DNA from: Acidobacteriota bacterium
Lineage (GTDB): Bacteria > Acidobacteriota > Blastocatellia > UBA7656
Length of the DNA: 64,000 nt
Direction: 5' to 3'
Assembly: GCA_040754075.1 (NCBI GenBank)
Contig: JBFMDH010000007.1
Location: 196,201 to 260,200, forward strand
The position numbers and the translations under genes are program-made. Each line of letters starts with the position of its first letter. Within the stretch, counting starts at the first letter, position 1. The notes beneath the pieces were generated by a model. The model did not search any database, had not been told where the DNA came from, and saw only the letters and a list, made by a program, of their open reading frames with translations. Shown one piece after another: positions 1 through 60,243 of the stretch.

Positions 1-2
1 GC

Positions 3-167
3 GGCATCAATCAAGCGACCTTGCAGAGCGTGGATGGGGCGAAACAGTCCGAATCCGCTGCCAGGAACTTGCACGAACTGGGGCAGAAGTTGCGGCAGTT
101 GGTGACGCGCTACAAATTGCCGCAGGAGTTGGATGCCCGACCTTTCGCCAAAGGAGCAACGCTATGA
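3..167 (+). CDS. Methyl-accepting chemotaxis protein, C-terminal end (partial)
   Basis: The frame is open from the left edge of the window to a TGA at 165-167 and encodes the last 54 residues of a protein. The peptide has the Gln/Ala/Ser-rich helical character of the distal MCP signalling domain (QSVDGAKQSESAARNL, then LHELGQKLRQLVTRYK), which normally follows the hairpin tip that binds CheA and CheW. The stop codon overlaps the cheW start by 4 bp (ATGA), so the two are probably translationally coupled. As the receptor of this cluster it would relay ligand or PAS/HAMP input to the CheA-receiver kinase downstream. Only the tail is visible, so sensing domain, membrane topology and length cannot be stated. 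The family call rests on this tail plus context. Confidence 0.75.
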   Translation, partial: GINQATLQSVDGAKQSESAARNLHELGQKLRQLVTRYKLPQELDARPFAKGATL

Positions 168-47571: not shown

Positions 47572-50076
47572 CTACAAGCTCGATTTCATCACTTCTTTAA
47601 GCGCAGTAAGCAATCGCTGATTCTCGTCAGGCGTACCCACCGATATTCTTACATAATCCGCGAGCATTGGATATTTGCTCACATCGCGCACCAGAATGTC
47701 ATGTTCCAGAAGCGCTTCAAAAAGTTCTTTCGGTTTTATGGCGGTTTTTACCACGATGAAATTCGCCTGTGATGGAACCGGCGTTAAGCCTTCGATAGTC
47801 GCTAACTCGGCAAACAGGCGTTCACGTTCATTGATAATTTTATCAATCGTCGGTTGAATCAACTCGAAATGTTCGCAGGCAACTTCGGCAGCCGTAGCCG
47901 AAAAGAAATTCAAATTATAAGGCAGCGTCGCTTTATGAATTTCGGTTGCGAGTTCCGGTGAAGTGAGTAAATACCCGACGCGAAGCCCTGCCATCGCCAT
48001 CGCTTTGGAAAAAGTCCTGAGCACAATTAAATTGGGCAATTCTTCAAGCAGCGGCACCACGGTTTTGCCTGAGAACTCCTGATACGCTTCATCGACGACA
48101 ACCAGCCCGTTGAAATTTTTTGCGAGGTACAGTAAATCCGCTTCATCAACCCGCGAACCCGTCGGGTTATTGGGCGAACAGAGAATCATCACATCCACAT
48201 CTTTCGATGCGCGATAAATCGCCTCAATATCGAATTGCAACTGATCATCCAACGGCACACTGATTACTTCGCCGCCCATCACTGTGACGATTTGCCGGTA
48301 AAGCGTAAAGGTCGGTTCGCAAAGCAACACGCGGGTTCCCTGCCTGACCGATACCATCAAAATCGCCTGAATCAATTCATTCGAGCCATTCCCGGCAAGC
48401 GTGCCCTCAGCTTTCCAACCGGCATGTTGGGCAAGCGTTTCCAGCAATTTCGCGGGAACGAAATCGGGATAGCGCGACCAGGCTCTTGCTTGTAATCGCT
48501 GTTCGACTTCGCGTTTGATTTCAGCGGGCATATCATAGGGATTTTCATTTTGATTCAACTTCGTGGTTGCCCGGTACGGCGCAAGCGTATAGGCGGTGAT
48601 GGCGCGCACCGCCGGTTTAATTTTATCAATTGCAGATTGCGGAGTATGCAATTGCGGATTGCGGATTGCGGATTGCGGATTTGCAGATTCGGTTAAGGGC
48701 GATTCTTGTTCTTGATTGGCAAATTGTGACGCTGCGCTTTGCGAACTCTCTGTCGAATCAATCCGCAATCCGCAATCCGCAGGAGGCTTAAGCCTGCCCC
48801 GCAATGTGATGGCTTGCTTGTGCGCCGTGAGTCCTTCGGCATCTGCCATTGCGGCAATCGCTTCGCCGTTTTGTTTAATCGCCGATTCAGTGTACTCGAT
48901 GACCGATTGACGTTTGACGAAATCATAGACCCCGAGCGGCGATGAAAAACGCGCCGTGCCAACGGTTGGTAAAACATGATTGGGTCCTGCGAAATAATCG
49001 CCGACGGGTTCAGATGACCACGCGCCATAAAATATCGCTCCGGCATTTTCGATTAAGGCGGCGGCGCTTTCGTTATCTGCGGTCATCAGTTCAAGATGTT
49101 CGGGCGCAAGTTGATTAATCAGTTCACAACCTTCGGCAAGCGAATCGACCACGAAAATTGCGCCGTAATTGTTGATGGAGGCGGAAGCGATTTCGCATCG
49201 TTCGAGTTCGGCAAGTTGCCGGGCGATTTCCTGTTCGACTTCATGGGCAAGCGCAAGGCTCGTGGTCACGCAGATAGCCGAGGCGGCTTCGTCGTGTTCG
49301 GCTTGCGCCAGTAAATCCGCTGCCACGAATTTCGGATTCGCACTATCGTCAGCAAGCACCACGACTTCGCTTGGTCCCGCGATGGAATCGATGCCAACGC
49401 TGCCGTAAACCAGTTTTTTAGCGATGGCAACATAAACATTGCCGGGACCTGTAATTTTATCGACGCGAGCGATGGATTCAGTACCGTAAGCGAGAGCCGC
49501 AATCGCCTGTGCGCCGCCGACGCGATAGACTTCCGAAATCCCCAGCGCATCAATTACCGCAGCGACATTGGCATTTTCCTCAAAGGTGGCGGGCGGCGTG
49601 GCAATCGCAAGTCGTCGAACCCCCGCGACCTGTGCGGGCACGACGTTCATGACGACAGATGACGGATAAGCGGCGCGACCGCCGGGAACATATAGACCGG
49701 CTGCGGCAATCGGCAAAATGCGTTGACCGAGTTTGGAACCTTCCGGGGTGGTGATGTGCCAATCGTGTTCTTTCTGATGCTGGTGAAAGGTTCTGACGTT
49801 TTCAATCGCCTGTTGAAAAGCGGCAACGGTTTTTGCATAAGCTTTTGCGGCTGCCTGTTTGATGAATTCCGGTTCAACACGCAAGGTCGCAGGCGTCAGT
49901 TCGCGGTTATCGAATTTTTTAGTGAAATAGATTAACGCCTCATCGCCGCCGCTTCGCACCCCGTCAACGATTTCAGTTACGCGAGCCACCAGTTCAGGAT
50001 TCAATTGCAGCGCCCGTGATTGAATGCGCGCCAGTGTCGGATTCGCTTGATTCGATTGGTAATTGACGATTTCCAT
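47572..50076 (-). CDS. hisDC: Fused histidinol dehydrogenase and histidinol-phosphate aminotransferase
   Basis: An 834-residue two-enzyme polypeptide. Residues 1 to about 428 are HisD (NAD-dependent oxidation of histidinol to histidine), with Glu326 and His327 in APEHLEL and GPNHVLPTVGTARFSSPLG. Residues about 487-834 are HisC, the PLP aminotransferase acting two steps earlier, with Lys691 in TFSKAMAMAGLRVGY and ILCSPNNPTGSRVDE. The joining segment, about residues 429-486, is made largely of heptamer-repeat DNA (PADCGLRID, SANPQSAIRNPQ) and resembles neither enzyme. There is no internal stop or frameshift in the given sequence. Separate hisD and hisC genes are usual, so this is an unusual fusion; internal translation starts for HisC cannot be excluded. 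Confidence 0.92.
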   Translation of the reverse strand: MEIVNYQSNQANPTLARIQSRALQLNPELVARVTEIVDGVRSGGDEALIYFTKKFDNRELTPATLRVEPEFIKQAAAKAYAKTVAAFQQAIENVRTFHQHQKEHDWHITTPEGSKLGQRILPIAAAGLYVPGGRAAYPSSVVMNVVPAQVAGVRRLAIATPPATFEENANVAAVIDALGISEVYRVGGAQAIAALAYGTESIARVDKITGPGNVYVAIAKKLVYGSVGIDSIAGPSEVVVLADDSANPKFVAADLLAQAEHDEAASAICVTTSLALAHEVEQEIARQLAELERCEIASASINNYGAIFVVDSLAEGCELINQLAPEHLELMTADNESAAALIENAGAIFYGAWSSEPVGDYFAGPNHVLPTVGTARFSSPLGVYDFVKRQSVIEYTESAIKQNGEAIAAMADAEGLTAHKQAITLRGRLKPPADCGLRIDSTESSQSAASQFANQEQESPLTESANPQSAIRNPQLHTPQSAIDKIKPAVRAITAYTLAPYRATTKLNQNENPYDMPAEIKREVEQRLQARAWSRYPDFVPAKLLETLAQHAGWKAEGTLAGNGSNELIQAILMVSVRQGTRVLLCEPTFTLYRQIVTVMGGEVISVPLDDQLQFDIEAIYRASKDVDVMILCSPNNPTGSRVDEADLLYLAKNFNGLVVVDEAYQEFSGKTVVPLLEELPNLIVLRTFSKAMAMAGLRVGYLLTSPELATEIHKATLPYNLNFFSATAAEVACEHFELIQPTIDKIINERERLFAELATIEGLTPVPSQANFIVVKTAIKPKELFEALLEHDILVRDVSKYPMLADYVRISVGTPDENQRLLTALKEVMKSSL
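48627..48800. repeat. Heptamer repeat block forming the HisD-HisC linker
   Basis: ATTGCGG units on the plus strand near 48640-48690 and CCGCAAT units near 48760-48780 face each other, with the 35-bp core element at 48766-48800 (palindrome AGGCTTAAGCCT). The same 35 bp occur in hisF at 43982-44016 with three mismatches. Confidence 0.8.
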
Positions 50077-53130: not shown

Positions 53131-54168
53131 TTAGGAGTGGAGGTTATTTTTTTCTGTCGCTCCAATAATTTCGCTTTGTTTAAAACCCAGAAGAATTTGT
53201 CTCACCCGATTTGCCTGCTTATGCGCATCTTGTGCCTTTTGCAGTAACGTTTCGGTGTATTTTGTATCAACTCCTTTTTCGCCGCTGAGATGTACGCCGA
53301 GATGGCGCAGCAACATGGCGCTCTCTTCGATGGCACGCATGGCATTCCACATGGCGTCTTCAACTTTTTCGATTAAATCACCGAAAAGACTATGAAGGGT
53401 ATAAGCGTGTCCGGTATGACATCGAAATCGTATGGGGTTATTGCCGCTTAATTGCAGCAAAACGCCATGACACTCCGGGCAGGTGAATGAAGAGAAATTT
53501 CCCAATTTCAGCACTCCGGCGTCTATCGGATTTACCTCTCTGGAAATGCGATTTTCAATTTCCAGCGCTTCAGGAATCGGCGTCTCCTCGCTTGTTTGTC
53601 CGGCGGTCTTCACTAATCGAGCCAACAAGCCAGCCATTTCTGACAGCTTAACGCAATGATCCACCTCGACATTGCTCAGGGCGCTGAGCGGCATTGACGG
53701 CGCATAAGCCTCTTCCGGGTTTTGCACGATAGTGGTGCCGCCCATTTGTTTAATCGCTCGCAACCCTGCCGTCCCATCATCCAACCCCCCGGTCAACACG
53801 ATGCCAATCACGCTTGCGCCAAAGCTTTGCGCAGCGGAACGAAATAAGGGGTCAATCGCCGGACGAAAACGGTTTTCTTTCGGTCCGTGTGAAAGGCTCA
53901 TGGTATTGGGCGATTCAATCAACAGATGATAATCTGCCGGTGCGACATAGACCTGTCCCGGTAAAAATTTTTCCCTGTGTCTGGCACTGATAACCGGCAA
54001 GGCTGCTGCGCGGTCAAGAATTTTTGCCAAAACATTCGGGCTTTGCGTGCTCTGGTGCAGCACGATAAAAATCGTTGCAGGAAAGTTTTGAGGTAAGCCG
54101 CCAAGCAATTGATGCAAGGCTTCGATTCCTCCTGCGCTCGCGCCGATGACCACAATATTTTTGTTCAT
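53131..54168 (-). CDS. Stand-alone CheB-type methylesterase
   Basis: A 345-residue protein containing a CheB methylesterase domain without receiver. The catalytic Ser11 is in IGASAGGIEAL, His in VLHQSTQSP, and Asp in TGGLDDGTAGL. After residue 190 a Cys/His-rich segment follows (FTCPECHGVLLQL, RFRCHTGHAYTLHSL), a likely zinc-binding region, and a helical tail (DAMWNAMRAIEESAMLLRHL). This arrangement is known for CheB-like proteins that lie next to CheB-CheR-kinase hybrids. The ATG at 54168 (with CGGAG upstream) is chosen over the long frame start at 54270. It is divergent from the hybrid at 54420, which has the same methylesterase fold. Confidence 0.88.
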   Translation of the reverse strand: MNKNIVVIGASAGGIEALHQLLGGLPQNFPATIFIVLHQSTQSPNVLAKILDRAAALPVISARHREKFLPGQVYVAPADYHLLIESPNTMSLSHGPKENRFRPAIDPLFRSAAQSFGASVIGIVLTGGLDDGTAGLRAIKQMGGTTIVQNPEEAYAPSMPLSALSNVEVDHCVKLSEMAGLLARLVKTAGQTSEETPIPEALEIENRISREVNPIDAGVLKLGNFSSFTCPECHGVLLQLSGNNPIRFRCHTGHAYTLHSLFGDLIEKVEDAMWNAMRAIEESAMLLRHLGVHLSGEKGVDTKYTETLLQKAQDAHKQANRVRQILLGFKQSEIIGATEKNNLHS

Positions 54169-54419
54169 CAAAACTCCGGGCAGGTCAAAATAATTGGAAG
54201 AGAGTGAGTAGATTGTTCCAATCGTCAGGGGAACCGTTTTCATTCTAATTAAGAATTGTCTCGGATTCAATTGCCGGGATAGTTCCGAAAAGGCTTTTGC
54301 TGTACAGCGTTTCGGGATTGCTTTAAACTGACTTTCATCGTCTTGCCTGAGCTTGAAAACTTCAAGTCGTAAAACAACACCAATGATTCAGGCGATTGTT
54401 TTCATTTAAGGAAATTCAT

Positions 54420-57400
54420 ATGCCGGAAACTTCCAAAAGTAATAATCGCTCGAAACGCAAAAATAACCGCGACCTTTTTGTCGTCGGACTTGGCGCATCG
54501 GCAGGCGGCATTCCCCCCCTGGAAAAATTTTTTGAAAGTCTGCCGCCGGTTCCCGGCATGGCATTCGTGGTTATCCTGCACCTGTCGCCGGAACATGAAA
54601 GTAATCTTGCCGCCGTGTTGCAGCGCAAAACTCAGATGCCGGTGATTGAGATTAAAGCGAAAACCAAAATTAAACCTAATGAGGTTTATGTAATTTCACC
54701 AAACCAATATCTGGTGATGAATGACGGGTACATAGACCTGAAAACCCCTGAAACCGAAAAGGGGAAACGGGCTGCCATTGACCTCTTTTTTCGCACTCTC
54801 GCGGAAGCTTATGACACCCACGCCATCGGTATCGTGCTTTCCGGCACCGGCACAGATGGGACGGTAGGACTTCGCCGGATTAGAGAAAAAGGCGGCATCT
54901 CTATCGTTCAGGAACCCCAGGAGGCACAATACAACAGTATGCCGCGAAGCGCCATTGAGGCGGCGGCGGTCGATTTCATTCTGCCGGTTGAACAAATGGC
55001 GAACACCTTGGGAACTCTCCGTGAAGCTTCGCGAGAGATTAAAATATTTCCTGAAGGGGATAAATTGCCACGCGCCGCAGAAGCCGATGCGCTTCGTGAA
55101 ATTCTGGCTTTCCTGCGCGTCCGCACCGGGCATGATTTCAACCACTATAAAGAATCCACCGTGTTGCGGCGCATCACTCGACGAATGCAGGTCAATACTC
55201 AGGTGACGCTTGCCACTTATCTGCGTTTTGTTCGTGAACACCCCGCAGAAATTCAGGAACTCCTCAGCGATTTGCTGATTACGGTCACCAATTTCTTTCG
55301 CGATGGGGATGCCTTTGAAGCTCTTGAACAAGAGGTCATCCCCAAACTATTTCAGAATAAATCACCCGATGACCCGATTCGCGTATGGGTAGTCGGTTGC
55401 GCCACCGGTGAAGAAGCCTATTCCGTTGCCATTCTGCTGATGGAATATGCCGAACAGCATAACCTTGACCGCAACCTACAGGTTTTCGCCACAGACATCG
55501 ATGAAGAATCAATTAGCAGCGCCCGCGATGCCACTTACCCCGATTCCATTGAAGCGGATGTTTCGGCAGAACGCTTGAAACGCTTTTTTTATAAAGAAGG
55601 TCAGCATTACCGCATTCGCAAAGAGATTCGTGAAATGGTGCTGTTTGCGCCGCATAATGTGTTGCGCGACCCGCCATTTTCAAGGCTCGATTTAATCACC
55701 TGTCGCAACCTGCTTATCTATCTCAATCGCGAAACTCAGGACCGGGTATTAGAGGTATTTCATTTCGCCTTAAATCCCAACGCCTATCTTTTCTTAGGCT
55801 CTTCCGAATCTGCCGATAATCTGCCGGAACTGTTTATTCCGGTGAATAAAAAATTCCGCATCTTTATGCGCAATGTGGTTTCCCACACGCCTTCGCTCGT
55901 TCCGCTGATGCCTTTACAAGGACGCTGGGAAATCAAGATGCCGGAAAGTATTCTGCCAAGACGCGGGCAGACTTTTTCATACGGCGATTTACACCAATAT
56001 ATTATCGAACAAACCTCCCCGCCCAGTGTGCTGGTCAATCCGGTCTATGACATTGTGCATTTGAGCGAAAACGCCGGGCGTTTCCTGCGCTTTACCGGTG
56101 GCGAACCGTCGCGCAATCTGCTCAAAGTGGTGCATCCCGATTTGCGCCTCGATTTGCGTGCCGCGCTGTTTGCTGCCTCACAGGGACAAACCGCAGAAAC
56201 CCGACGGGTTCCGATTGCCCTCGACGGGGTCAATCAGTTCGTCAACATCGTCATCCGTCCGATTACCAAACCGGATGCCATACGCGGATTCAATCTGGTG
56301 ATTTTTGATGTCGATCATGAAGGCGTGGCACTCAAAGAAGAAAAACCGAAAGAGGTTCCCACCAATGAAATGAACACCGTGGTGCGTCAACTCGAAGACG
56401 ACCTGCAACGCACCAAAGAGCAATTGCGAACCACCATCGAACAATACGAAACCTCGAACGAAGAGTTGAAAGCCTCGAACGAAGAATTACAGGCTATCAA
56501 TGAAGAGTTGCGCTCAGCCACCGAAGAACTCGAAACCAGTAAAGAGGAGATGCAATCGGTCAATGAAGAATTGACCACCGTCAATCACGAACTCAAAGAC
56601 AAGGTTGACGAAGTCAGCCGCGCCAATAGCGATTTACAAAACCTGCTCGCTTCAACCGACATCGGCACCATTTTCCTTGACCGCAGACTTTGTATCAGCC
56701 GTTATACACCGCGAGTGATGGATTTATTTAACATCATTCCTTCGGATGTCGGGCGTCCGTTTTTTCATCTCACTCATAAACTGGAAAAGAATATTTTGCC
56801 GGAAAAAGCCGAACAGGTACTGGAAACCCTGATGCGCGTCGAAGAAGAGATTCGCAGTCAGGGTGGACGTTATTACATTGCCAGAATATCGCCTTATCGC
56901 ACCCTGGACGATAAAATCGATGGGGTCGCGTTGACCTTTGTTGACATCACCGAACGCAAAAAAACCGAAGAAGCCTTGCGCGAATCCGAACAACTCTTTC
57001 GCGCTATCGTCAGTCGAGCAAGCGCAGGAATTACGCGCAGCAATTTAAATGGCGAGTTGACTTTCGTTAATCAGCAATTTTGTGAAATGCTTGGCTACAG
57101 CGAAACCGAATTGCTCGGCAAAACCATGTGGCAATTAACCTGTCCAAATCATGTTGAAGAAACTATTCGCTTGTTTAAACAACTGGTCGCTGATGGCACG
57201 TCTTTTCAAATCGAGAAATGTCTGCTGAGCAAGGATGGCGCGGAAATCTGGTGCAACGTCATGGTATCGGCAATTCGTGATTCTCAGGGCAAACCGCAAT
57301 CCGCTGTGGCAGTCATCCACGATATTAATACTCGCCGGAATGCTGAAGAAGCTTTGCGCCTCAGCGAAGAACGCCTGCACCTGATTTTGGATAGCATCAC

Positions 57401-58499
57401 CGACTATGCGATTCTCACGCTCGACAATCAACGCCTTATTAAAAGCTGGAGCACGGGCGCAGTCGCTATTTTTGGTTACACGGATGCGCAAGCTATCGGA
57501 CAATCTGTCGATATGATTTTTACTCCCGAAGACCGGGAAAATAATATTCCGCAAAAGGAGATTGACGAAGCCTTGACCAGAGGACGCGCTGAAGATGAGC
57601 GTTGGCATCTGCGTAAGAATGGTTCGAGGTTTTACGCCAGCGGAGTGATGACGCCGCTTCGTGACAGCGCGAGCGGGGATTTGGTGAAAATTTTGCGCGA
57701 CCTCACCATTCAGAAAAAAGCCGAAGAGGTATTACAACGTTCGCATGATGATTTGGAGGAACGGATTAAAACCCGCACAGGGGAATTGGAAGATAGCAAT
57801 CTGGCGCTGAAAAATGAGGTGCAACAACGCATATCCGCCGAACATCAGGTCAAAGGTTTATTGCGCCGCAATATTAATAGTCAGGAACTTGAACGCCAAC
57901 GCCTTTCTCGTGACCTGCACGACACCCTCGGTCAGCAATTAACCGCTTTGCGTTTAACCATCGAATCGCTGAAAGAACACCTTCAACTGAATCCTGAAAT
58001 TAAAGGGCAAATCAATCAAATTGAGACCATGCTCCGGCGCTTGGATGCCGAGGTCGATTTTCTTGCCTGGGAATTGCGCCCGGGACCGCTTGTCGAATTG
58101 GGATTTGTGACTGCCCTCGAAGGTTTTGTACAGGACTGGTCGAAACATTTTCAAATTCAGGTTGAGTTTCATGCAACCGGACTTACCGGCGTCGAGTTAT
58201 CCACGGAAATCGAAACTCACCTTTACCGCATCGCTCAGGAAGCCTTGAACAATATCGCAAAGCATGCGAATGCCAGCTATGTCAATGTCCTGCTTGAACG
58301 CCGCGACCAATTTGTGGTTCTGGTGATTGAAGATAATGGCATCGGGTTTGATGTCAATGAAAAGAGCACGCTACAGGAAGGGTTGGGACTTTTAAGTATG
58401 CGCGAACGGACAGTGCTCATTGGCGGAGAGTTGGATATTGAATCCACTCTCAATGAAGGAACCACGGTTTTTGTCCGTGTCCCTGTGGCATTGAGTTGA
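54420..58499 (+). CDS. CheB-CheR-PAS-histidine kinase hybrid
   Basis: A 1359-residue cytosolic protein. The order is CheB methylesterase (about 15-200; Ser27, His54, Asp146), CheR (about 225-480; VVGCATGEEAYSVAILL binds SAM), a PAS-like segment (about 525-600), a long coiled coil (about 660-745; NEELKASNEELQAINEEL), three PAS domains (about 750-1105), a HisKA_3 dimerisation domain with His1167 in SRDLHDTLGQQL, and HATPase (about 1240-1355; DNGIGFD, EGLGLLSMRERT). It joins methylation and demethylation domains to a kinase, so it may control itself or receptor adaptation; no MCP is adjacent. The NarL-type regulator 10 bp downstream is the likely phosphoacceptor. The ATG at 54420 has AAGGAAA upstream; a TTG eight codons earlier is an alternative. 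Confidence 0.92.
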   Translation: MPETSKSNNRSKRKNNRDLFVVGLGASAGGIPPLEKFFESLPPVPGMAFVVILHLSPEHESNLAAVLQRKTQMPVIEIKAKTKIKPNEVYVISPNQYLVMNDGYIDLKTPETEKGKRAAIDLFFRTLAEAYDTHAIGIVLSGTGTDGTVGLRRIREKGGISIVQEPQEAQYNSMPRSAIEAAAVDFILPVEQMANTLGTLREASREIKIFPEGDKLPRAAEADALREILAFLRVRTGHDFNHYKESTVLRRITRRMQVNTQVTLATYLRFVREHPAEIQELLSDLLITVTNFFRDGDAFEALEQEVIPKLFQNKSPDDPIRVWVVGCATGEEAYSVAILLMEYAEQHNLDRNLQVFATDIDEESISSARDATYPDSIEADVSAERLKRFFYKEGQHYRIRKEIREMVLFAPHNVLRDPPFSRLDLITCRNLLIYLNRETQDRVLEVFHFALNPNAYLFLGSSESADNLPELFIPVNKKFRIFMRNVVSHTPSLVPLMPLQGRWEIKMPESILPRRGQTFSYGDLHQYIIEQTSPPSVLVNPVYDIVHLSENAGRFLRFTGGEPSRNLLKVVHPDLRLDLRAALFAASQGQTAETRRVPIALDGVNQFVNIVIRPITKPDAIRGFNLVIFDVDHEGVALKEEKPKEVPTNEMNTVVRQLEDDLQRTKEQLRTTIEQYETSNEELKASNEELQAINEELRSATEELETSKEEMQSVNEELTTVNHELKDKVDEVSRANSDLQNLLASTDIGTIFLDRRLCISRYTPRVMDLFNIIPSDVGRPFFHLTHKLEKNILPEKAEQVLETLMRVEEEIRSQGGRYYIARISPYRTLDDKIDGVALTFVDITERKKTEEALRESEQLFRAIVSRASAGITRSNLNGELTFVNQQFCEMLGYSETELLGKTMWQLTCPNHVEETIRLFKQLVADGTSFQIEKCLLSKDGAEIWCNVMVSAIRDSQGKPQSAVAVIHDINTRRNAEEALRLSEERLHLILDSITDYAILTLDNQRLIKSWSTGAVAIFGYTDAQAIGQSVDMIFTPEDRENNIPQKEIDEALTRGRAEDERWHLRKNGSRFYASGVMTPLRDSASGDLVKILRDLTIQKKAEEVLQRSHDDLEERIKTRTGELEDSNLALKNEVQQRISAEHQVKGLLRRNINSQELERQRLSRDLHDTLGQQLTALRLTIESLKEHLQLNPEIKGQINQIETMLRRLDAEVDFLAWELRPGPLVELGFVTALEGFVQDWSKHFQIQVEFHATGLTGVELSTEIETHLYRIAQEALNNIAKHANASYVNVLLERRDQFVVLVIEDNGIGFDVNEKSTLQEGLGLLSMRERTVLIGGELDIESTLNEGTTVFVRVPVALS

Positions 58500-58508
58500 G
58501 GTGACCGG

Positions 58509-59162
58509 ATGGACAAACTTCGTATCGTTATTGCGGAAGACCACGAAATCGTTCGCGAAGGTTTAAAGGCATTGGTCAATGCGCAACCCGACATGCGGGT
58601 CATTGGCGAAGCCAATCATGGATATGAAGCCATTCAAGCGGTAAAAAATTTACAACCGGACATCATTATTATGGATGTCACCATGCCGAAATTGAACGGT
58701 CTGGAAGCCACTAAAAAACTCAAGCAGATTTGCCCGCAGGTTAAAATCCTGACCTTAACCCGACACGCCGAAGCCGGATTCATTCAACAACTCCTGCGCG
58801 CAGGCGCGGAAGGCTATGTGTTAAAACAGAGCGCCTCTGCGGAATTAATTCGCGCGATACGGGCACTCGGCGCGGGAAATAATTATCTCGACCCGGCGAT
58901 TACCGGAAAAGTGATGACCGGTTATGCCGGAAAAGAGGTCAAGATTTCGGTTGACCCCAAAAACGCCATAAGCGACCGCGAAGAAGAGATTATTCGACTG
59001 GTCGCCTGGGGCTATAGCAATAAAGAGATTGCCAATCGCCTTGAAATCAGCGTGAAAACTGTCGAAACCCATAAGACCAATATCATGAAAAAGCTGAACT
59101 TTCGCGGGCGCATCGACATGGTTCGGTATGCATTATTGCGAGGCTGGTTAAAAGATAATTAA
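58509..59162 (+). CDS. NarL/FixJ-type response regulator
   Basis: A 217-residue two-domain regulator. The receiver (about 3-120) has acceptor Asp56 in IIMDVTMPKLNG with EDHEIVREGL at the acidic pocket; Lys in YVLKQSAS completes the site. The LuxR-type HTH (about 150-210) includes SDREEEIIRLVAWGYSNKEIANRLEISVKTVETHKTNI, the signature of DNA-binding NarL proteins. The position 10 bp after the CheB-CheR-kinase gene, and that kinase's HisKA_3 type (which usually pairs with NarL regulators), make a cognate pair very likely. A terminator hairpin follows at 59192. Confidence 0.94.
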   Translation: MDKLRIVIAEDHEIVREGLKALVNAQPDMRVIGEANHGYEAIQAVKNLQPDIIIMDVTMPKLNGLEATKKLKQICPQVKILTLTRHAEAGFIQQLLRAGAEGYVLKQSASAELIRAIRALGAGNNYLDPAITGKVMTGYAGKEVKISVDPKNAISDREEEIIRLVAWGYSNKEIANRLEISVKTVETHKTNIMKKLNFRGRIDMVRYALLRGWLKDN

Positions 59163-59191
59163 TACCGCGATAAGCTGCTTACCTTAATGTA

Positions 59192-59215
59192 TCTCTCAGG
59201 GAAATCCCTGAGAGA
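59192..59215 (+). terminator. Terminator after the NarL-type regulator gene
   Basis: Perfect 11-bp stem TCTCTCAGGGA (59192-59202) with its complement at 59205-59215, a 2-nt loop, then CGGTTTATTT. Confidence 0.65.
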
Positions 59216-59289
59216 CGGTTTATTTCCCTCATAGATTTTTTGTCATCAATGTACGACTATATAGTCTTCTGCCGATCATCATAATCTCC

Positions 59290-59345
59290 AAATTGAAGTA
59301 CATCTACGTATGTAGGGGTAGATATCTAAATGCGTAGCCACCGAC
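59290..59345. promoter_or_regulatory. Clustered TACGTA-type sites, possible NarL-family operators
   Basis: CATCTACGTATGTAGGGG and ATGCGTAGCC lie close together upstream of the single receiver gene. CTACGTATGTAG is nearly palindromic, a layout like operators of some NarL/FixJ regulators. Only the sequence similarity supports this. Confidence 0.3.
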
Positions 59346-59486
59346 GAGCAAGGGATATTTTACTGGGTAAATAAAGAAATTCTACCCCTGCGCCACCTAA
59401 ACCGGAGATTACTAATCATTCATCAGCTAATTGAATTAATGCGTTACCCTGATTTATACAAAACGGAAAGAGATACTAATTCACCC

Positions 59487-59873
59487 ATGACGATAAAAAA
59501 TTTCAAAGGGCGAATCCTTTTTGTCAATCCTGATTTGGAAACCCAGGAGATGGTTGCGTTGATTGTCAAAGATGCCGGATACGAAATCATTTCGGCATTA
59601 AATATTGGCGAAGGGCTGGCGTTGGTCAATCAGGCAAATTTTGATTTAATTCTGCTTGATTGGTTTTTTGAAGATGGGCATGGCATTGATTTATGTCGGC
59701 AAATCCGCACCCAGGATCAACACACGCCGATTTTTTTCTATGCCAGCGAAGGGCGACAATCTGAAATCAAAAAAGCGATTAATGCCGGCGCTCAAGGCTT
59801 TTTTCTTAAACCGGTGGCGGTTGACCATTTCTTAACCACACTCTCGGAATATCTTGAACGGCGGATAATTTAA
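59487..59873 (+). CDS. Single-domain response regulator
   Basis: A 128-residue receiver without output domain. Asp58 in LILLDWFFEDGHG is the likely phosphorylation site and FFLKPVAVDHFL contains the conserved Lys. The acidic pocket at the start (RILFVNPDLETQ) has Asn-Pro-Asp instead of the usual paired acids, so magnesium binding may be weaker. The start at 59487 fits the domain edge; an in-frame ATG at 59439 would add 16 residues, and neither has a strong Shine-Dalgarno. It is convergent with the next receiver, 7 bp away. Confidence 0.82.
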   Translation: MTIKNFKGRILFVNPDLETQEMVALIVKDAGYEIISALNIGEGLALVNQANFDLILLDWFFEDGHGIDLCRQIRTQDQHTPIFFYASEGRQSEIKKAINAGAQGFFLKPVAVDHFLTTLSEYLERRII

Positions 59874-59880
59874 CTGTAGG

Positions 59881-60243
59881 TCAGGAAAGCATCTCGCGAA
59901 TCATTTGGGTGAGTTTTTCTATTTGCAGAGGTTTTTGAATCGCGGCATTGGCTCCGACTTCAAGCGCCTGACTCACCATACCCGTAAGAAACGCCGTCAT
60001 GACGACGATGGGAGTATGTTTCAGGTCTGGTTGCGCGCGAAGCCTTTTGATCATTTCGATACCATCAATAACTGGCATCTGAATGTCAGTAATAATCAAG
60101 TCGGGCTTATCAACCACTGCCAACTCAATGGCGATCTTGCCGTTTTCGGCGCTCAGTACCTCGAACCCTTCGACCTCTAATAGATAGACCAGCAGATCAC
60201 GCGAATCTATCGAATCTTCTACGACTAATATTCTGGTAGCCAT
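59881..60243 (-). CDS. Single-domain response regulator (CheY-like)
   Basis: A 120-residue canonical receiver. ILVVEDSIDSRDLL gives the acidic pair, Asp53 in LIITDIQMPVIDG is the phosphorylation site, VVMTAFLTG has the switch Thr, and IQKPLQIEKL the conserved Lys. With no output domain it may act as a phosphorelay shuttle or bind a target protein. It closes the signalling locus that begins at 53131 and could receive phosphate from either kinase type in this window; its partner is not determined. Confidence 0.9.
   Translation of the reverse strand: MATRILVVEDSIDSRDLLVYLLEVEGFEVLSAENGKIAIELAVVDKPDLIITDIQMPVIDGIEMIKRLRAQPDLKHTPIVVMTAFLTGMVSQALEVGANAAIQKPLQIEKLTQMIREMLS

Follow-up and report, generated by a model that had tools for sequence, protein, structure and literature searches.

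A CheB-CheR-PAS histidine kinase of an Acidobacteriota bacterium carries methylation-site-like glutamate heptads behind its own methyltransferase and may be a self-adapting sensor

Three kinds of described system come closest to the locus presented here, which lies at positions 53,131 to 60,243 of a 64,000-nucleotide stretch of DNA (the window) from an Acidobacteriota bacterium (assembly GCA_040754075.1, contig JBFMDH010000007.1) and centers on a fusion of 1359 amino acids (aa) joining a CheB methylesterase, a CheR methyltransferase, PAS domains and a HisKA_3-type histidine kinase. With the adaptation of methyl-accepting chemotaxis proteins (MCPs) in E. coli and Salmonella the fusion shares the enzyme folds, the conserved motifs, and Glu pairs flanked, at an identical spacing within the heptad, by small residues; it differs in that its locus has no MCP, CheW or CheA, its CheB has no receiver domain, the strict methylation consensus is not matched in the window and the output is a HisKA_3 kinase. 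The second system is the RsbM-RsbK pair of Bacillus cereus, in which RsbM is a CheR-type enzyme. Methylation of the RsbK kinase at its S-helix by RsbM represses kinase output, and no cognate CheB was found in that work (PMC4574943). The likeness is that a methyltransferase is genetically tied to a sensor kinase, that the target helix lies ahead of the kinase and that no chemotaxis is involved; the difference is that enzyme and substrate are separate proteins there, whereas the fusion has CheR, CheB and the candidate substrate in one chain. The third kind comprises systems with CheR and tetratricopeptide repeats (TPR) such as FrzF (PMC3447774, PMC2535941); like the fusion, they have an additional domain on a CheR that works outside flagellar chemotaxis, but they act on an MCP-type receptor. 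The CheR-TPR gene found shortly upstream of the window belongs with them, and the fusion does not.

Neighbours and a CheB receiver being missing, the fusion does not belong to an MCP adaptation system; nor does it count strictly among the RsbK group, for a domain scan detected in it neither the CHASE3-HAMP-GAF sensing part nor the C-terminal receiver of RsbK. It does have the CheR-type enzyme in the frame of the kinase and a Glu-pair signalling helix ahead of that kinase, as expected for the RsbM-RsbK type. By analogy, the fusion may work like both systems, and it would be a cis form of RsbM-RsbK with a writer and an eraser.

What is new in this analysis is a helix behind CheR that carries tandem heptads resembling methylation sites. 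An AlphaFold2 model of the window protein (monomer, 56 sequences, mean pLDDT 84.7, pTM 0.59) places residues 641-736 of the modelled fragment in a single helix of 96 residues, a coiled coil encoded at 56367..56654 (+ strand), and seven tandem heptads of the form [AST]xx[EQ][EQ]xx[AST], one EQ and six EE, occupy 56430..56579 (+) and are the proposed methylation substrate. An example of tandem heptads behind CheR is TSNEELKASNEELQAINEELRSATEELETSKEEMQSVNEEL. Pfam returned only weak matches to eukaryotic coiled coils on this helix.

The family was searched in 396 genomes drawn from the phylum Acidobacteriota, plus named genomes and plasmid records, and fusion loci were chosen by a CheB-CheR query alone, the helix being left out of the query. 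Matches at E 1e-60 were obtained in 67 of the 396 phylum genomes and in 253 further plasmid records, annotated "chemotaxis protein CheB" or "CheR family methyltransferase", while named genomes contributed at least 80 loci. The named-genome matches listed, grouped by record titles or by our own placing of named genera, include proteobacteria, Bacteroidota, cyanobacteria, Anaerolineae, Firmicutes, Planctomycetes, Verrucomicrobia, Nitrospirae, Gemmatimonadales and Acidobacteria. The fusion is an already known kind of protein, spread widely and annotated as CheB or CheR only; the plasmid proteins belong to the same family, and their annotation names the enzymes and leaves the helix unnamed.

EE-heptad runs were present in all 158 intact fusions examined (81 from the phylum and 77 named, among the matches listed). 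Runs of four or more EE pairs, spaced seven residues apart, were found in 81 of 83 phylum fusions, the remaining two (L094, L125) being frame-broken; the phylum set has 84 loci, of which L134, which carries the run, fell outside the script count, and L147 and L161 gave no row, having no ORF that the script's filter let through. Among the named matches listed, all 77 fusions whose frame extends 250 aa or more past CheR had a run of at least five, and three loci with shorter tails in frame (L223, L231, L235) are not part of the 77. At position f, 95% of 554 heptads from the phylum and 93% of 525 from the named matches listed have Ser, Thr or Ala. Alignment of 56 fusions (A3) showed four consecutive EE pairs to be invariant, on par with the motif residues of CheB and CheR, and the mean column entropies were 0.16 bit at b, 0.10 at c, 0.51 at a, 0.69 at f, 0.78 at d, 1.61 at e and 1.83 at g. 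In an ordinary coil the core positions are expected to be the conserved ones; the helix of the fusion is the reverse. The coils hold a mean of 6.1 motifs, versus 0.43 after shuffling, and a run of at least three occurred in just 3 of 4,915 other open reading frames (ORFs) of the fusion loci, all of them fusion pieces or a missed fusion, which rules out that the motif arises by chance or from coil composition.

The first-pass annotation had described the fusion as one protein with methylesterase, methyltransferase and HisKA_3 kinase, and this was borne out by a domain search, which placed them in one open frame (54420..58499, +) in the order CheB-CheR-PAS-coil-PAS_10-PAS-PAS-HisKA_3-HATPase, and by full-length alignment of CheB and CheR to solved enzymes. 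We judged the ATG at 54420, with an AAGGA-like site, the best start (1359 aa); an upstream TTG at 54396 would give 1367 aa. The CheB domain is at 54483..55010 (+; PF01339, 3.6e-53; aa 30-205 of the 1367-aa frame), followed by the all-alpha CheR_N domain with its invariant RR pair at 55089..55244 (+; PF03705, 7e-14; aa 232-283 of the same frame) and by the CheR methyltransferase domain, binding S-adenosylmethionine, at 55284..55847 (+; PF01739, 2.7e-55; aa 297-484; fold match 5ftw, TMt 0.88). Between CheR and the helix the model has a PAS-like domain (55980..56312, +; model residues 512-622) that is below Pfam listing at E 1e-3, and the fold matches of the model include PAS-coil-PAS chains. Behind the helix come PAS_10 (56634..56951, +; PF13596, 1.4e-32; aa 747-852 of the 1367-aa frame), two more PAS domains (56979..57740, +; PF13426, PF00989, TIGR00229; boundary of the second approximate), and the HisKA_3 dimerisation and phosphoacceptor domain with HATPase_c (57891..58487, +; PF07730, 5e-13 and PF02518, 7.7e-14; aa 1166-1231 and 1273-1364). 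Across the 56 aligned fusions the motifs of CheB and CheR that we take to be catalytic are conserved; fusions with an inactive CheR, as natural controls, were sought in the conservation table of these 56 and no clear case emerged. A profile scan revealed no receiver domain on the CheB of the fusion or on a solitary CheB encoded beside it, while the CheBs of both chemosensory clusters of this genome have one.

With six to seven modification-type sites directly behind CheB-CheR, the fusion probably adjusts its own sensitivity and not that of a receptor. We consider it fairly probable, from the sequence, that its CheB and CheR domains demethylate and methylate its own signalling helix, the protein being a kinase that contains its own adaptation module. 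We infer three points: the identity of the heptads as the substrate, the reversibility of methylation and its effect on kinase output. The fusion would act as a soluble PAS-sensing HisKA_3 histidine kinase, with the signal arriving at its PAS domains, and would phosphorylate the NarL-type regulator encoded directly behind it, changing transcription. CheR would methylate the Glu pairs of the long helix that separates PAS_10 from the first PAS domain, within its own dimer or in one beside it, and the methyl groups would be removed by the CheB domain, perhaps also by the divergent solitary CheB. By analogy with chemoreceptor methylation, neutralising these exposed charges might reset the packing of the coiled coil and with it the gain of the kinase. 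No proposal of self-methylation of CheB-CheR kinases was found in open-access full text, which is no proof that none exists.

The explanation that survives best beside self-methylation is that the Glu heptads are a structural signalling helix only, while CheB and CheR act on an unknown soluble partner or serve as sensing or scaffold domains; we regard it as unlikely. Polar Asn at a together with Leu at d is usual in dimeric coils, and the position frequencies of the fusion coil show just this; the exposed positions b and c are nevertheless more conserved than the core, with f about as conserved. Several observations weigh against the helix being a methylation substrate. The strict MCP methylation consensus, given as [ASTG][ASTG]xx[EQ][EQ]xx[ASTG][ASTG] (PMC6391922), has no match in the window helix and occurs in only 13 of 83 fusions, the reason being the predominance of Gln or Glu at heptad position e, whereas two MCPs of the window genome have one strict site apiece. 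Glu-rich heptads are present in other, unrelated coils too, for instance in L346 with small residues at f. Moreover, selection by PAS_10 yielded six relatives without CheR that are neither cut nor frame-broken, with EE runs of 6 in L196, 5 in L197, 3 in L198, 2 in L207 and 0 in L321 and L322, so that two of the six keep long runs, and the genome of L197 has no convincing CheR match. The remaining four have runs of three or less, which speaks against a purely structural helix, although L321 and L322 may have lost their whole N-terminus; the comparison of CheR loss with run length (Fisher p 7e-6) carries little weight, being based on six cases that are related by descent, are partly N-terminal truncations and include two with long runs. 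As for the consensus, a relaxed form, [ASTG]xx[EQ][EQ]xx[ASTG], occurs seven times in the window, and 82 of 83 fusions have three or more copies of it; [EQ][EQ]xx[ASTG][ASTG] is found in 82 of 83, and EExxA[ST] in 28 of 83, with one site in the window. The methylated sites of FrzCD of Myxococcus likewise deviate from the E. coli form (PMC2535941).

The helix was also followed outside the full fusion. Its profile matched 75 of the 396 genomes at E 1e-8, giving 103 rows, 90 of them with at least 60 bits (hand count). By manual comparison, 83 of these 90 lie in frames that also encode CheR; the other seven are two contig-end cuts (L194, L195), the frame-broken G214, the short chimeric L193 and the truly CheR-less L196, L197 and L198. 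Split forms link CheR to the helix independently of the fusion: in L199-L202 CheR and the coil form one protein and an adjacent gene encodes CheB, in L203 and L204 the frame of a coil-PAS kinase overlaps with a CheR gene, in L209 a CheR frame lies ahead of a coil kinase, and in L208 CheB, CheR and a HAMP-GAF-helix-kinase-receiver protein share an operon. The CheR-coil protein at L201:3837-5867 has an unusually long ladder of ten consecutive EE heptads.

Searched with a DNA pattern of four EE heptads that takes no account of CheR, 120 of the 396 genomes gave a match, and among the matches listed we followed 27 open frames in 30 loci. Nine of these frames have Ala, Ser or Thr at all three inner f positions, and eight of the nine are linked to CheR, a further point against the structural explanation: six contain it, two lie directly behind a CheR gene (at the L203 and L204 places), and no link was found for one. 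The other 18 comprise an RsbK-like kinase in a CheB-CheR operon (L335) and 17 without CheR in the frame, the frame only being examined. The pattern also matched L353, the end of a true MCP, which served as a positive control. Its matches in genomes G017 and G009 were short-period DNA repeats resembling GAGGAGTGA and GAAGAATGA, which contain in-frame stops and do not encode proteins.

Another possibility, which we hold to be improbable, is that MCPs are adapted in trans by the fusion, among them those of the array at the window start. For this array the first-pass annotation had raised the option, describing it as having CheB but no visible CheR. The genome does encode three MCP proteins, beside four CheB domains and four real CheR domains in a genome-wide count, one chemosensory cluster is 50 kb away, and CheR_N keeps its invariant RR pair. 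However, a CheR-TPR gene is found at C7:193916-195466, ending 734 bp before the window and upstream of the truncated receptor gene, where the annotation had said that a dedicated CheR gene would tell against its proposal. The cluster, in the order cheW, cheR with TPR repeats, CHASE3 receptor gene, cheW, cheA-REC and cheB, encodes its own CheR-TPR and CheB, which rules out the need for the fusion in this array and leaves its adaptation by the fusion unsupported. Window positions 1-167 are the 3' end of the CHASE3 receptor gene, and CheW at 164-796 is the first full gene of the window, followed by CheA-REC and CheB. A second complete chemosensory cluster, on C25, likewise has its own CheR and CheB; since both clusters encode a CheR, the fusion is not needed as the missing one. 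In the CHASE3 receptor gene (L014:9469-10368) a run of N stands where the signalling domain is expected, so that this domain cannot be judged. The coil well ahead of the signalling domain of one MCP of this genome (L017:3606-6116) weakly matches the helix profile (E about 1e-9).

The genomes without chemoreceptors also argue against MCPs as the target. The MCP search was run on 69 genomes, of which G123 and G147, without a fusion match, were excluded; in 11 of the remaining 67 fusion genomes (G016, G115, G157, G163, G194, G204, G215, G227, G326, G346 and G360) the MCP signalling domain was absent at E 1e-3. CheW was not found in nine of these eleven, and the fusions are the sole convincing CheR in all eleven. 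Thirteen fusion frames are listed from them, twelve with runs of 6-8 and the frame-broken one of G346 with a run of 3. In such genomes CheR cannot serve an MCP, barring one that escaped detection in the assemblies, which are drafts 91 to 100% complete. The suggestion of the first-pass annotation that the fusion may methylate something other than receptors is supported by these genomes, and no MCP, CheW or CheA gene, in agreement with it, was seen beside the fusion among the ORFs of 50-64 kb (by eye, with the five locus genes profile-scanned).

The gene for the NarL-type response regulator (REC and GerE; 58509..59162, +; domain search) begins 10 bases past the stop codon of the fusion, an arrangement of a HisKA_3 and HATPase_c kinase with an adjacent REC-GerE gene that is that of a NarL/HisKA_3 two-component pair. 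The C-termini of the fusions vary: counting the phylum and the named matches listed, 20 of 163 have a HisKA_3-type end, and a NarL-type gene lies within 3.5 kb of 16 of the 20, in most cases immediately downstream, so that synteny supports the regulator as the probable cognate partner of the kinase, as first proposed. It is very improbable that CheR acts in trans on this regulator, on a lone receiver or on some other two-component protein: the NarL-type gene is genetically coupled to the fusion, and methylation of the regulator PhoP by CheR is reported for Salmonella (PMC8546571), but most fusions have neither a HisKA_3-type kinase nor a NarL neighbour (the latter in 25 of the 163) and keep the helix all the same.

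All five genes of the locus named in the first-pass annotation were recovered at their places. The solitary CheB methylesterase (53131..54270, - strand; PF01339, 1e-55) aligns to 1CHD, probably starts at an internal ATG and ends in a zinc-ribbon-like C-terminus with the motif CPEC...RCHTGH, a kind of motif found in 10 of 14 short solitary-CheB matches in fusion loci (that of the window counted, with no criterion of distance). Past the regulator lie two lone receiver domain proteins, one at 59439..59873 (+; PF00072, 1.2e-18) and a convergent one at 59881..60243 (-; PF00072, 1e-27). Genome G001 has a matching layout of a divergent CheB, the fusion, an overlapping NarL gene and then two short ORFs (131 and 132 aa); a pair of short receiver-like genes past the NarL gene is thus seen at 59439-60243 of the window and at L050:2171-2930 of G001, the latter pair by eye. 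Elsewhere in the window (47572-50076, -), HisD and HisC are apparently joined in an 834-aa frame by a low-complexity linker with NPQSAIRNPQ-type repeats, which looks like an intergenic repeat turned coding (domain identities by eye).

The fusions form a common family that is annotated merely as chemotaxis enzymes, and the question of what receptor-less CheB-CheR proteins target reduces to one labelling experiment. It is an evenly balanced possibility that in many phyla the CheB-CheR-PAS fusions make up a large class of sensors that adapt themselves, each chain having a writer, an eraser and, on its own signalling helix, a multi-site methylation ladder, so that a two-component system would gain a chemotaxis-like memory that needs no receptor array. 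If self-methylation is true, covalent adaptation would reach beyond chemoreceptor arrays and would be built into single proteins of ordinary two-component systems.

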